Assembly (NCBI GenBank): GCA_003352285.1
Contig: QQVN01000005.1
Span: 62,001 to 126,000 of the forward strand
Source: Thermoproteota archaeon
GTDB taxonomy: Archaea > Thermoproteota > Nitrososphaeria > Nitrososphaerales > Nitrosopumilaceae
Direction: 5' to 3'
DNA length: 64,000 nucleotides
Part shown: one piece after another, positions 11,562-19,807 of the stretch
Numbering within the stretch: position 1 is the stretch's first letter
Layout: every line of letters begins with the position of its first letter
Program-made: the position numbers and the translations under genes
The notes under the pieces: generated by a model
Seen by the model: the letters and a program-made list of their open reading frames with translations, nothing else
What the model was told of the DNA's origin: nothing
The model's database searches: none

Positions 11562-12020
11562 TTAGGTGTAAACAGGGATCGAAGATTTGGTTAAATTAAT
11601 TGAACCATTTTTCTTAGAATCAACCTCTTCAGGTTCTTGGAGGCGTTTTCTGGTTTCATTTAACACAAAATTATCAGATACGTTTCCTTGTAGTTCCTTG
11701 ATATTTTTTGTATGATCTTCAGCAGACATTACTAGTTCGTCAATCTGATCATTTAGGTCACCAAGGGAATATGATGAGTTATTCACAATATCTACAAAAT
11801 CTTTTAAAAGAGAATGAACTGCCTTGCGTTCTTCGTATTTACAAAGCAAATAGTCGGCAAACTGGAGAATTTTATTAAAATCCTGTAACTCCTCGTATGT
11901 TAATTTCTCAATCTTTTTCTCATCATCTAATTGACTTAATTTTTTCTCTACAATGTTTGAGAATCTTCGTACCTTTTCCAAATCCTTTTGAGTGTCTCTA
12001 GAGTGATGCAGTATTGTCAA
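11562..12020 (-). CDS. Coiled-coil protein in the cdvC gene cluster
   Basis: A 152-residue protein, almost entirely helical and charged, with heptad-like stretches (DLEKVRRFSNIVEKKLSQL and LQFADYLLCKYEERKAV). It starts at TTG in a TTGA overlap with the stop of the upstream ESCRT-III-like gene, so the two are translationally coupled, and it precedes cdvC by 39 bases. I see no MIT-binding motif with certainty. Length and helical make-up fit either the N-terminal helices of a split ESCRT-III protein or a separate partner. Function is inferred only from position. Confidence 0.6.
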   Translation of the reverse strand: MTILHHSRDTQKDLEKVRRFSNIVEKKLSQLDDEKKIEKLTYEELQDFNKILQFADYLLCKYEERKAVHSLLKDFVDIVNNSSYSLGDLNDQIDELVMSAEDHTKNIKELQGNVSDNFVLNETRKRLQEPEEVDSKKNGSINLTKSSIPVYT

Positions 12021-12580
12021 GTATCAGCTAGTTTTGGAAAATCTAGATTAGGGTACTGCTTGTTTATTTTAGAGTCCACCATCAATTTTGCTTCATCTAG
12101 TATTAGCCAAGAAGCATTGTTGTGTTCAGCAAAATCAAATTTGGCACCTGTAATTGTGCCTGAATCCATCACCACACTACCCAAAACAGTGGATAATTCA
12201 GATAATTCGTGACTAGTCTTTGGCATTAGCTCATAAAGACTAGCACTAATTGTGCGAATTACAAGTATTGCAGAGGGCAGAACTGTTGGAAATGTATCAA
12301 TTGTAGATAGATTCTGAATTTTTTTATAAATTTGGTTCAAGGACTCTATTGCAAAAGAGATTGTTTTTTCAGTCTCTAATCTTGCGATATCTTCTTTATC
12401 ATAATCAGTGCTGTTTTTCAAAGTGGATTTATTCTCCTTGCTAAGGGCAGATTGCTCCTTTTTTAGAATCGCGAGTAGTTCTGAAAAGCGGTCAATAGTA
12501 TATGATAACCGCGGCATGATTGTGGAATTGTAGGAGATATGGGGGTATCTATAGCCACTACCAAACCGCTGTGTCATCAT
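12017..12580 (-). CDS. ESCRT-III (CdvB/Snf7)-like protein
   Basis: A 187-residue helical protein beginning MMTQ. The second half follows the CdvB pattern closely: LPSAILVIRTISASLYELMP, then LSELSTVLGSVVMDSGTI, and ILDEAKLMVDSKI leading to YPNLDFPKL, matching the core and closing helix of thaumarchaeal CdvB. The N-terminal half has two long charged helices as in the ESCRT-III hairpin. CdvB proteins polymerise on membranes at the division site and are remodelled by CdvC, encoded just downstream. There is no obvious C-terminal MIT-interacting tail after PKLADT, so this may be a divergent or accessory paralogue. An alternative ATG is at 12517. Confidence 0.7.
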   Translation of the reverse strand: MMTQRFGSGYRYPHISYNSTIMPRLSYTIDRFSELLAILKKEQSALSKENKSTLKNSTDYDKEDIARLETEKTISFAIESLNQIYKKIQNLSTIDTFPTVLPSAILVIRTISASLYELMPKTSHELSELSTVLGSVVMDSGTITGAKFDFAEHNNASWLILDEAKLMVDSKINKQYPNLDFPKLADT

Positions 12581-13928: not shown

Positions 13929-14381
13929 GTGATTGATGAAAAGATTGAATCATTAGGAATTACTTTACCGGATCCGCCAACTCCAGCTGGCTCTTACATT
14001 CCAGTAGTCATTGCAGGAAATCTAGCATTTGTATCAGGACAGATTCCAATGCAAAACGGAAAGGTCCTCTTTACCGGTAAAGTATCAAATGATAATATTG
14101 ATGAGGCAAAAAAATCAGCAAAAATTTGCGCTATCAACATTTTGGCACAACTAAAACGAGAATTAGGTAATTTAGATAGAGTGACACGAGTCGTCAGATT
14201 ATCTGGATTTGTAAATTCAACTCCAGATTTTACTGCACATCCTAAAGTCATCAATGAGGCATCTGATCTAATCCATGAAATTTTTGGAGAGAAAGGAAAG
14301 CATGCAAGAATTGCACTGGGGGTAGCGGCACTCCCACTTGATTCTATGACCGAAATTGATGCAATAGTAGAGTTTTCTTAA
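13929..14381 (+). CDS. RidA/YjgF-family protein
   Basis: A 150-residue protein starting at GTG. Recognisable RidA features include a proline-rich N-terminus (LPDPPTPAGSYIPVV), the FVSGQIP turn, NILAQLKRELGNLDRVTRVV and a C-terminal ARIALGVAALPLDSMTEID strand with the substrate-site arginine. RidA enzymes hydrolyse reactive enamine/imine intermediates from PLP enzymes. This longer subgroup (about 150 residues) is common in archaea and bacteria. A TATA-like AATTTAAAAAC about 27 bases before the GTG points to a leaderless transcript. Confidence 0.85.
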   Translation: MIDEKIESLGITLPDPPTPAGSYIPVVIAGNLAFVSGQIPMQNGKVLFTGKVSNDNIDEAKKSAKICAINILAQLKRELGNLDRVTRVVRLSGFVNSTPDFTAHPKVINEASDLIHEIFGEKGKHARIALGVAALPLDSMTEIDAIVEFS

Positions 14382-14523
14382 ATTTAGAAAACATTTGGAG
14401 ATTTTTTTAAATAAATTTTAGAAGAAAAGATACCATGACCTATGAAGTATCAAGAATTTAATTTAAAATAAAAAAAGAAAAAGGAAAGAAAAGAACTGGA
14501 ATCATTTTAGATGTTCAGTTAAA

Positions 14524-14574
14524 TTAATTCTGTGGTGGTTGAGTACCTTTTGATTTCTTTTGTTTTTTGTCCAT
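14524..14574 (-). CDS. 16-residue lysine-rich small ORF with strong SD
   Basis: MDKKQKKSKGTQPPQN, ATG start. AGGAGG (14587-14582) sits 7 bases upstream, an unusually good SD for this genome, where many genes look leaderless. A long U-rich tract on the same strand (about 14500-14460) gives a plausible terminator, and the leader upstream is highly structured. The peptide is basic and polar with no membrane segment. Whether the peptide itself matters or its translation is a regulatory device is unknown. Confidence 0.55.
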   Translation of the reverse strand: MDKKQKKSKGTQPPQN

Positions 14575-14740
14575 ATTGACACCTCCTCATAAAGCACACT
14601 CAAGGAGGCAACTTTCAAAGGGAATAGGCAATACAAAGTAACACTCATCGCTAGGAGTAGTGTAGACAATGTAAAAGGAACTTTGAAAATTCCGATTTAC
14701 CATATCAGTGTGCTCGGCAGTTGCACACTATCAATCCATG
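14575..14740 (-). ncRNA. Structured leader (candidate switch) upstream of the 16-residue ORF
   Basis: The only gap over 500 bases (14382-14969) holds this element. On the minus strand: AGTGTGC (14729-14723) pairs with GCACACT (14713-14707); CTTTGAAA-type arms at 14688-14681 and 14620-14613 pair over 8 bp; within them AGTGT/ACACT (14663-14659/14645-14641) pairs; and CCTCCT (14608-14603) pairs with the SD AGGAGG (14587-14582). The loop of the SD hairpin contains a second AGTGTGC (14600-14594) able to pair with 14713-14707 instead. The rest of the gap, 14382-14460 and 14741-14969, is AT-rich and shows nothing else beyond the promoter of the next gene. Confidence 0.5.
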
Positions 14741-14969
14741 AATTAAAAGATATCGCATTTTTTATTCTTTGAAAATCAGTCGTTAAATCTTTCATAGAGT
14801 TTTGAAAATATTACAAAATTAAATGAAAATCTTTCATGGTTTGTTAACGCACGTGGAATTTGATTCGGCAAAAAAGATTCTTAATCCAATGACGTAACAA
14901 GTGTTCATCAGTTAATCAACTGTCATGCAATGCTTGGTTTAATCGAGAGATCTCATCTATAGCAAATTC

Positions 14970-15524
14970 ATGATTGCCTTAAAACGCAGTTACTTAATTT
15001 TGCTCATAGGTGCAGGAACACTTGTGGCAGGTTCAGTAGTTTTAGGAGTCAATTCTAGTGCGTTAGCAACTGATTTTCTTGCAAACAACCTAATCATAAA
15101 GCAAACACACCTAGAATCAGGTCAACAACACCAAACAGACATGGTGGCAAAATCAAGCGATACAGTCTCGATTTTGCTTAGAGGTCAACCATTTAATGCA
15201 CAATTGCAAGCTACAGTTACTGAAGCTGGTACCGCAGTTTGGCAAACATCATTTAATGGAGACCACATTGGCAACTTCCAACCAGTTGAAGGACACACCT
15301 ACAGCATAATAATCAAAAATGTAGGTACTGAAACTGCAACGGTTGATGCTATAGTAGGCAATGTTCCATTCTTAGGTCAAGGCAATGGTGATAAACTTGG
15401 CAATGTTGCCGGTACACTTGCAGGCCTAGGTGTAGGATTTATTGGAATCGCTCTCCTTGTAATAGGCGGAGTAGTATTCTTTGTTGATAGAAGAGCAGTA
15501 AAGAAAATTGCTCCAACTAACTAG
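14970..15524 (+). CDS. Membrane-anchored extracytoplasmic protein, unknown function
   Basis: A 184-residue protein with an N-terminal hydrophobic helix (YLILLIGAGTLVAGSVVLG), a central extracytoplasmic beta-rich region of about 100 residues and a C-terminal membrane helix (FIGIALLVIGGVVFFV) followed by a short basic tail (DRRAVKK). The central part (SVNxLL-type strands, HTYSIIIKNVGTETATVDA) resembles small beta-sandwich modules; no catalytic residues stand out. Two-helix proteins of this shape with an external domain are common in Nitrosopumilus. It is flanked by the structured leader on one side and a convergent MFS gene on the other. Confidence 0.7.
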   Translation: MIALKRSYLILLIGAGTLVAGSVVLGVNSSALATDFLANNLIIKQTHLESGQQHQTDMVAKSSDTVSILLRGQPFNAQLQATVTEAGTAVWQTSFNGDHIGNFQPVEGHTYSIIIKNVGTETATVDAIVGNVPFLGQGNGDKLGNVAGTLAGLGVGFIGIALLVIGGVVFFVDRRAVKKIAPTN

Positions 15525-15574
15525 ACTCTAAAACACAACATTTTCTTTTTTTGTTTTCAAGTGGTGGATATTAC

Positions 15575-16849
15575 CTAGACTACTTTGTGAGAGAGACGAT
15601 GTTTCAGGTATGACCTAAATGTTAGTAAAGAGAAAAAGATTCCTACTGAGGCAATAGTAAATGCTACAGGATAATTTATTGAGTTTGCAACAAAGCCAGA
15701 TGTAATTGCACCCAAAAAGATTCCCAACCCCACCATAAAGCTGTTCACACCCAAGAATCTTCCTTCAAAACCTCGCGGAATGGTTTTGAAGAGAATCACA
15801 GAGCTTGCAGTACTAAATATTGAAAATGCAGACACCATTAAACTAGATGAAACAGCAGCCACAATAAATGAATCAAATCCACTTGCTATTGGAATTAGTG
15901 CAGATGCAATAATTATTCCAAGAATTCTTGGCAAGTATGCAATTTGGGCAGCTTTTTCTTCTGAAACTTTTGCAATTAATTTTGGAACTACAAAAAATAT
16001 TGCAAGTAAAGTAATTGTCTGAATCAGATATATGATAAAGACTTGGGAATCAGTAAAGCTGTACTCTTTTAAAAACGGAATAAATGCTGTAAAGTAGATG
16101 TTGCTACCAAAATAGAAAAGAAAATTTGTAAAATATAGAATTCCGATCTCATGGGACATTTTTCTTTGAAAGAGTGAAGTAAGATGCCTAAAATCGTATT
16201 TTTTTGGAATCTTGGTAAATATTAACTGAAAATTATAACGATTGTGATTAAAGACGTGCTTTAGACCATAAACAGAATGAACCAAAGTCTCCCTTTCAAG
16301 AAAGCTCTTGCTTCCAACAAGAATACTAAACAGTACCGCACCTGCACTAGTTAATGCACAAAATAGAAAGTATGGCTTCAAATCAAAAAATGAATCCCAT
16401 ATAGAGCCTACAACAAAGGCAATGAGACTGCCAAATCCAGTAAGAATCGAGATGTTTGCAAATAATTTACTCCACTGGTTATTTGGAACAGATTCCATTA
16501 CAAGAAGTTGCGTTACAGGGTTTTTTCCAATAATAAAAAATCCAGCAATTGGAGATATTAGAAAAACTGCACTCAACTCTGTAATGAAGAATAACCAAAT
16601 ACAACATGCAGTTATTACAGAAAAACTGACGAGTAGAATTATCCTCTTTACGTGATACTTGTCAATTATCTTTCCCCAAAAAATTGAGCCAAGCGATGAA
16701 AATGCATAATGTAATCCAATTACAATTCCAACATCAGCTACATTTCCTCCAAGAAACAAAACATACAATGGCATTGCAATGTGCAGTCCTTCTGCTGCAA
16801 TGCTGGAAGGCATGATGAAAAATAACCACTTTTTGCTACTTTGAAACAT
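15575..16849 (-). CDS. Major facilitator superfamily transporter
   Basis: A 424-residue membrane protein with about twelve hydrophobic helices in two sets of six and a basic loop between them (residues about 185-230, HNRYNFQLIFTKIPKKYDF). The loop between helices 2 and 3 carries the degenerate MFS signature (GSIFWGKIIDKYHVKRI). Such carriers are proton-coupled exporters or importers; the substrate cannot be read. No companion gene suggests a compound. ATG start; monocistronic by its flanks. Confidence 0.85.
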   Translation of the reverse strand: MFQSSKKWLFFIMPSSIAAEGLHIAMPLYVLFLGGNVADVGIVIGLHYAFSSLGSIFWGKIIDKYHVKRIILLVSFSVITACCIWLFFITELSAVFLISPIAGFFIIGKNPVTQLLVMESVPNNQWSKLFANISILTGFGSLIAFVVGSIWDSFFDLKPYFLFCALTSAGAVLFSILVGSKSFLERETLVHSVYGLKHVFNHNRYNFQLIFTKIPKKYDFRHLTSLFQRKMSHEIGILYFTNFLFYFGSNIYFTAFIPFLKEYSFTDSQVFIIYLIQTITLLAIFFVVPKLIAKVSEEKAAQIAYLPRILGIIIASALIPIASGFDSFIVAAVSSSLMVSAFSIFSTASSVILFKTIPRGFEGRFLGVNSFMVGLGIFLGAITSGFVANSINYPVAFTIASVGIFFSLLTFRSYLKHRLSHKVV

Positions 16850-16929
16850 AAGAAATTCTAGACCATATCATAACCGACTTTGTAATTTTAAGTTACTAAT
16901 TATCTAAGATTTTGTAGTTTTTGGAGAAA

Positions 16930-17970
16930 TCAGTTTAATTTTTTGTTGAACTCTTTGAGGAATGCTTTGATCTTGGGTTTTGGAATTACAGCACCACATG
17001 CCTTATCATGTCCACCGCCAGAGCCACCAAGTTCTGTAGCCAAGTCATTGACTATCTTGCCAAGATGCACCTTACAAGATTTAGAGCCACGAACAGATAC
17101 TGCATAGATTCCATGGTCAACTCTTTCTTTGAATGCAACACCAACATCTTTTCCGGATAATCCAAGTACGAAATTAACTGCTCCACTTGCACCTGCATCT
17201 GTAATCTCCATGAAGCCAAGATTCTTCATAGTCTTCATACCCTTTTTGACTTTGGCAATCATTTCTGCAAGTTTGCCAACCTGAATTTGTGCAAATTCGT
17301 AAGTGTTTGGGATTTCATGAGGATACTTGCCTTCTGCAAGTTCCTCTGTAAGGTATAGAAGATAATCAGGGTCCTTTTGGTGGCCCACAATGTTGTAAGT
17401 CATAACAGTGGCACTAATCAATGCAAATTGTCTATCATAGATTTGCAATAGTTTTGATCCTATTGGTCTGTCTTCCATATAATCAGTAATTGCAGCACAT
17501 GCAGCAACAAAGGCTGCATGATCAGTTAGTTTTGATTTGAATTTATTGTAAACCTGAACTGTAGTGCATTCATTGATATCATGAATCATCTTTACTTTGA
17601 GTTTTTCTAGTTGCTTGACAATCTTTGGGTCAATATCATGATGGTCAATGTATGTAATTGATACGCCTCTCTTTCTTAGAGTTCCCATCATCTCAACAAA
17701 TTGGTCCTGATTCTTTTTGCTCAGACCCAAATCACAGATGTATAATGCCTTTAGTTTCTCATCAGCTACCAAGGACTCGAGTGCTTCCATCTGTCCTGGG
17801 TAATCAACCAAGATAGAATCTCCTCCAAAGGCTTGGCGAATTAATGCAGCAGAGCTTATTCCATCACAGTCTTCTTTGTGAGAGAGACAAATGATTTTTG
17901 TTTTTGTTGATTTTTTCTTTGTTGTCTTTGTGGTTTTTGCCTTTTTTGCTGCCATAGGAGTAAAAACCAT
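16930..17970 (-). CDS. DHH-family phosphoesterase (archaeal RecJ/GAN-type)
   Basis: A 346-residue protein. The DHH domain shows SHKEDCDGISSAALI (motif I), ICDLGLS (motif II) and YIDHHD (the DHH motif). The C-terminal DHHA1 domain ends with GSGGGHDKACGA, the nucleic-acid-binding glycine motif. This fits archaeal RecJ-like nucleases or oligonucleotide phosphodiesterases acting in replication, repair or RNA turnover. A lysine-rich N-terminal tail (AKTTKTTKKKSTK) precedes the domain. The TATA-like TTTAAA at 17981-17986 fits a leaderless start at the second ATG (17955), giving MAAKKAKT; the longer form from 17970 is less likely. Confidence 0.88.
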   Translation of the reverse strand: MVFTPMAAKKAKTTKTTKKKSTKTKIICLSHKEDCDGISSAALIRQAFGGDSILVDYPGQMEALESLVADEKLKALYICDLGLSKKNQDQFVEMMGTLRKRGVSITYIDHHDIDPKIVKQLEKLKVKMIHDINECTTVQVYNKFKSKLTDHAAFVAACAAITDYMEDRPIGSKLLQIYDRQFALISATVMTYNIVGHQKDPDYLLYLTEELAEGKYPHEIPNTYEFAQIQVGKLAEMIAKVKKGMKTMKNLGFMEITDAGASGAVNFVLGLSGKDVGVAFKERVDHGIYAVSVRGSKSCKVHLGKIVNDLATELGGSGGGHDKACGAVIPKPKIKAFLKEFNKKLN

Positions 17971-19499: not shown

Positions 19500-19702
19500 T
19501 TTCTAGAGTTCAGCCACTCTTTTGCTTTAGAGTTCACATCGTGTTTGTAGAGAACTTCAAAGACCATATCATAAAATGAAATTCCTTTCTTTTGTGCTTG
19601 ATCATCTAGCCATTTTATTCCATCTGCAAGTTCTGGGTCATACTGTGAGAACTCTACTAGTTCATCGACCATCTTTGTGAAAAAGACGTGAGATTCAAGC
19701 AT
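19496..19702 (-). CDS. Hypothetical small soluble protein
   Basis: I take the ATG at 19702 (MLESHVFFTKMVDELVEF), giving 68 residues; an upstream extension to 19765 is open but reads like non-coding sequence and would run through the promoter region. The protein is acidic and helical (DELVEFSQYDPELADGIKWL, FYDMVFEVLYKHDV). It is tail-to-tail with citrate synthase with overlapping stop codons. No family recognised. Confidence 0.55.
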   Translation of the reverse strand: MLESHVFFTKMVDELVEFSQYDPELADGIKWLDDQAQKKGISFYDMVFEVLYKHDVNSKAKEWLNSRN

Positions 19703-19807
19703 GATGATGACTTTCAATCTATGATCATAAGTGGGAAATTCAAATAATATAGACAAAGAAGTCACATTAGACAGGGTAAATTTGACTAAATTTTTTAAAA
19801 TTAAATT

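Follow-up and report, generated by a model that had tools for sequence, protein, structure and literature searches.

The element described here lies in a 64-kb window, the whole stretch of DNA that was analysed, from a Nitrosopumilaceae archaeon with a 1.69-Mb genome in five contigs. The host is near Nitrosopumilus sp. b1 (hereafter b1), like it a marine ammonia oxidizer, which belongs to the same genus and is the sole close relative in the compared set; the corresponding b1 locus is on NZ_MU078707.1. The element is intergenic, with a RidA-type gene (13929-14381, plus strand) on one side and the gene for a 184-aa protein (14970-15524, plus strand), for which we found no Pfam match, on the other. 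Beyond the 184-aa gene lie an MFS transporter gene (15575-16849, minus strand) and then a DHH phosphoesterase gene (16930-17970, minus strand). In several other genera the gene directly after RidA is either DHH-like or encodes a small cysteine-rich protein of 65 aa, so the element and its two neighbors appear to be a genus-specific insertion. This apparent insertion occupies 14381-16930, between the RidA and DHH genes, and holds the RNA element, the 184-aa protein and the MFS transporter. Next to RidA there is also a remnant ORF, MTYEVSRI (14435-14461, plus strand). Its b1 counterpart (11955-12152), with the same start and end, encodes a cysteine-rich (zinc-ribbon-like) protein of 65 codons, which other genera also have after RidA, and the host has undergone an in-frame loss of 57 codons.

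A read of the minus strand of the window from 14300 to 15100, on which our coordinate check is based, gave the following features, listed in the direction of the presumed transcript:

14769 to 14758, minus strand: candidate TATA-like promoter element AAGAATAAAAAA, the best upstream site, a weak motif
14762 to 14465, minus strand: conserved element and presumed transcription unit of ~280 nt, with 4 of 298 positions changed in b1
14729 to 14707, minus strand: upstream hairpin AGTGTGC-N9-GCACACT, pair probability 0.98 at 37 °C
14695 to 14677, minus strand: local hairpin GGAATTT/AAGTTCC, exclusive with a long-range stem (14690-14681 with 14620-14611)
14664 to 14640, minus strand: hairpin ACACT...AGTGT, whose internal loop carries the sole b1 substitution in the leader (14647)
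14608 to 14603, minus strand: anti-SD arm CCTCCT, a hexamer shared with the 3' end of 16S rRNA
14600 to 14594, minus strand: loop AGTGTGC, the proposed switching strand, an exact repeat of the upstream hairpin's 5' arm
14587 to 14582, minus strand: Shine-Dalgarno (SD) sequence AGGAGG, paired in the predicted fold
14574 to 14524, minus strand: 16-codon ORF MDKKQKKSKGTQPPQN with its stop, found only here and in b1
14499 to 14466, minus strand: U-rich tract, by its sequence a probable archaeal U-tract terminator

At the level of letters, a preliminary description of the locus was accurate. The SD seven bases 5' of the ATG (14574-14572), the complementary CCTCCT, the AGTGTGC between them and both arms of the upstream hairpin (14729-14723 and 14713-14707) stand exactly where it had placed them, and the U-rich tract does follow the ORF. 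The long-range stem it had given as 8 bp is also present, but the best match, ATTTTCAAAG with CTTTGAAAGT, spans 9-10 bp. A genome search returned GGATCACCTCCT once, at what is presumably the 3' end of the 16S rRNA; the SD therefore matches the anti-SD. The TATA-like motif was learned from 38 upstream regions in the window, and the candidate would put the start of the transcript near 14734-14742. Termination at U-tracts has been described for archaeal aCPSF1, a thaumarchaeal one among them (PMC8716108). The block contains no ORF of at least 40 aa apart from an unsupported TTG-started frame. This 55-aa hydrophobic frame, which runs over the leader, was rejected: its internal ATG is AAG in b1, and it has no SD. 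Two short repeats occur in the same region: AAATCTTTCAT twice, 42 bp apart, in 14785-14837, and TTTGAAAAT in three copies spread over 14682-14809; judged by position, they are possible regulator sites beside divergent promoters.

To place these features in an evolutionary frame, we aligned the host with b1 and used fourfold sites of eleven genes as the neutral yardstick. Divergence at fourfold sites in the aligned region is 18.4%. Against this rate the leader (14575-14742), with one change in 168 positions, has a binomial P of ~5e-14. The adjoining stretch, 14763-14905, differs at 16 of 143 positions (11%; Fisher P ~1e-5 against the element). Other intergenic sequence has changed by 2.8%, and several other intergenic regions by 1-3%. 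The edges of the conserved block coincide with the TATA-like candidate and the U-rich tract. Constraint thus spans the whole unit, beyond the SD hairpin or the ORF, and this is the main new fact that the alignment provides. Conservation exceeds the neutral level, as a functional small RNA unit requires; because the element lies far below both fourfold and flank divergence, it is probably a functional, genus-restricted RNA unit.

The pairing arms are all identical in b1, the only relative with the element, and the loss of these arms in close relatives, which the preliminary description had named as counting against it, is therefore not what we see. The sole leader substitution falls in a loop and only two near-identical homologs can be compared, so covariation cannot test the pairing. 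One further change, U to C at 14522 in b1, converts G-U to G-C in a helix that may close the RNA by pairing its 5' end with the region after the stop codon; it is a single one-sided change. The 5' end has a second set of competing partners, the start-codon region and the post-stop region.

Two other stretches of low divergence stand out in the alignment. About 250 bp (14907-15157), running from upstream of the 184-aa gene into its N-terminal part, are perfectly identical in b1; together with the low fourfold change of that gene (6%), this reflects either strong constraint or recent exchange. A mostly intergenic stretch at 19500-19807, with 4 of 308 positions changed, overlaps a possible 89-aa ORF and may be coding or a further RNA.

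Among 250 genomes of the family, the element (~14742 to 14465) is present in two, the host and b1. DNA searches of the family genomes gave, outside the genus, only A-rich chance matches inside other genes. A covariance model run on the 250 genomes found the host and b1, with two others at noise level (E 0.17 and 0.64). Following the suggestion that relatives be searched for the MDKKQKKSKG peptide and the stems, we recovered both in b1 alone and obtained no covariation. An SD-plus-peptide pattern likewise matched only these two among 400 genomes of the order. No such element lies beside the orthologs of the neighboring genes in another genus (58-59% identity) or downstream of RidA orthologs in other genera, and three exact patterns had no match in viral contigs. 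No Rfam family matched the element at gathering or relaxed thresholds; at the gathering score the window contains no Rfam riboswitch, and the relaxed search gave a best E of 3.

How the SD is held was addressed with an energy model, without ligand and with assumed start sites. In the minimum-energy fold of both genomes the SD pairs with the anti-SD arm, in agreement with the proposal that a strong SD is hidden. At 37 °C the SD:anti-SD helix has a probability of 0.83. Throughout 5-50 °C the SD remains paired, with some of the pairing at 5-20 °C made to partners other than CCTCCT, and its unpaired probability is 0.02 at 30 °C, 0.019 at 50 °C and 0.07 at 60 °C. With starts near 14735-14760 it is mostly 2-10% unpaired at 30 °C; with assumed starts at 14720, 14700 and 14660 its partner differs, yet it is still mostly paired. 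Occlusion is thus robust to the start chosen, and the exact partner depends on the 5' end. Overall, the structure is predicted to be largely static, with the SD occluded.

The motifs themselves are less unusual than the block that carries them. In dinucleotide shuffles, for which the features tested were chosen after the fact, CCTCCT appeared anywhere in the 158 nt upstream in 4.5%, and the three-way 7-mer arrangement in 0.9%. Genome-wide, AGGAGG-N(3-10)-ATG occurs 98 times, against 99 in a reversed control. Across the 250 family genomes CCTCCT-N-AGGAGG-N-ATG has approximate counts of ~65 against ~68 in the control, and most of the other instances fall within longer reading frames. As a class, the SD-hairpin motif is at chance frequency; alone it is weak evidence, and the weight comes from the conserved block.

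The preliminary description had gone further, to two competing folds that decide whether the SD is free. In such a translational switch a ligand, protein or small RNA would stabilize the pairing of loop AGTGTGC with 14713-14707 and so open the SD hairpin. The exact identity of loop and upstream arm, the rarity of the three-way arrangement among shuffles and the preservation of every arm in b1 fit this proposal, and forcing the alternative stem (14713-14707:14600-14594) does lift SD accessibility to ~0.5-0.6. However, that stem has a probability of ~0.0003 at 37 °C and is hardly populated at temperatures below 60 °C. The alternative is 5-7 kcal/mol worse at 20-37 °C (by ensemble energy, forcing it costs ~5 kcal/mol at 37 °C and 7.5 at 20 °C), and growing-chain folds show the upstream hairpin forming first during transcription and then persisting. 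A riboswitch finds little footing in an RNA with no Rfam aptamer match and no two folds of comparable energy, and no gene follows the 16 codons: the enzyme or transporter that a riboswitch usually regulates is missing. While the observation in the sequence was confirmed, the mechanism of two competing folds, as riboswitch or thermosensor, is not supported by the modeled energies, and we regard a switch as unlikely. A specific form of it, a genus-specific thaumarchaeal switch whose ligand or partner RNA swaps the SD-hairpin loop into the upstream hairpin and turns on a 16-residue regulatory peptide, would be rather improbable.

Selection might instead act on the 16-residue lysine-rich peptide, with the leader merely its 5' UTR. 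The 7-nt SD spacing is good and the ORF is identical in both genomes; that identity extends to the DNA, so coding selection cannot be judged. But SD-ATG pairs occur at chance frequency in the host genome, the 168-nt leader is conserved as much as the ORF, and we found no homologous peptide beyond the host and b1, which leaves this reading with a low probability. Equally doubtful is a DNA-level element, such as binding sites or a regulatory region shared with the divergent gene at 14970. The intergenic position beside that gene, which likewise has a highly conserved upstream region, suits it, but between block and gene lies the diverged stretch 14763-14905. A replication origin was also considered and set aside, as the only clear orc1/cdc6 gene sits on another contig and so gives no sign of an origin at the element.

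Caution is needed because the 184-aa gene is itself slow, and locally reduced divergence or exchange may contribute to the low divergence of the block. Carried to its end, this argument makes the segment recently exchanged or slowly diverged and its complementarity fortuitous, and CCTCCT is indeed not very rare among shuffles. Against this, the 143 bp between the block and the conserved pre-gene stretch have diverged at the 11% given above, and both block edges match plausible transcript ends; we think chance an improbable account. An RNA thermometer, releasing the SD on melting, is very unlikely, for although a continuous helix sequesters the SD, at most ~2% of it is unpaired at 30-50 °C and 7% at 60 °C in the energy model, and the Nitrosopumilaceae, the host's family, are mesophiles.

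Our best reading is that the element is a new orphan structured RNA or a short mRNA with a constitutively occluded SD. The minus strand would be transcribed for ~280 nt, from the candidate promoter to the U-rich terminator, and the transcript would fold into a multi-hairpin RNA carrying the 16-codon ORF, with the anti-SD arm holding the SD in a static hairpin. Translation of the ORF would then be low, or confined to ribosomes able to open the hairpin. Genes in the host's group are thought to be mostly leaderless. Archaea rich in leaderless mRNAs differ in how the SD functions (review PMC7531240), so it should not be taken for granted that the 16 codons are translated. The selected product would most likely be the whole RNA, small and structured or dual-function, rather than a two-state switch. 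Some results count against this explanation. Fold stability is mildly unusual for the leader (z -1.9 to -2.2), but the whole 243-nt unit folds hardly better than its shuffles (z -1.06); the good conservation of several other intergenic regions and the slow change of the 184-aa gene, both given above, weigh the same way. On balance, we give about even credence to a short, independent minus-strand unit, confined to one small Nitrosopumilaceae genus, whose RNA as a whole is selected and whose SD is statically occluded.

Structured regulatory RNAs in ammonia-oxidizing archaea are, to our knowledge, little explored. If true, a discrete and strongly conserved RNA unit that hides its SD would offer a good opportunity to test how these organisms use the SD and regulate through RNA. 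Among known systems, translational riboswitches with an SD-sequestering platform share the anti-SD arm over the SD, a hairpin upstream and a strand that could serve as alternative partner. Unlike them, the element has no conserved aptamer and no Rfam match, its alternative fold is unpopulated, and it precedes a lone 16-codon ORF. RNA thermometers of the ROSE and fourU type also place the SD within a hairpin, whereas here a perfect 6-bp G+C-rich core is not predicted to melt physiologically and there is no heat-shock gene. Tan1 of marine Thalassoarchaea is an abundant, lineage-specific ncRNA of 229 nt, found by RNA-seq, with homologs at 75-79% (PMC5069720). The element is known from sequence alone and the likeness is one of description, not of sequence comparison, but it too would be an orphan structured RNA of similar length from marine archaea, known from few relatives. 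Dual-function small RNAs combine an RNA role with a tiny ORF, as in bacterial SgrS and RNAIII. With these the element shares its layout only, a presumed short transcript that is structured on either side of a very small ORF. For now it is an orphan whose putative function is plausible.
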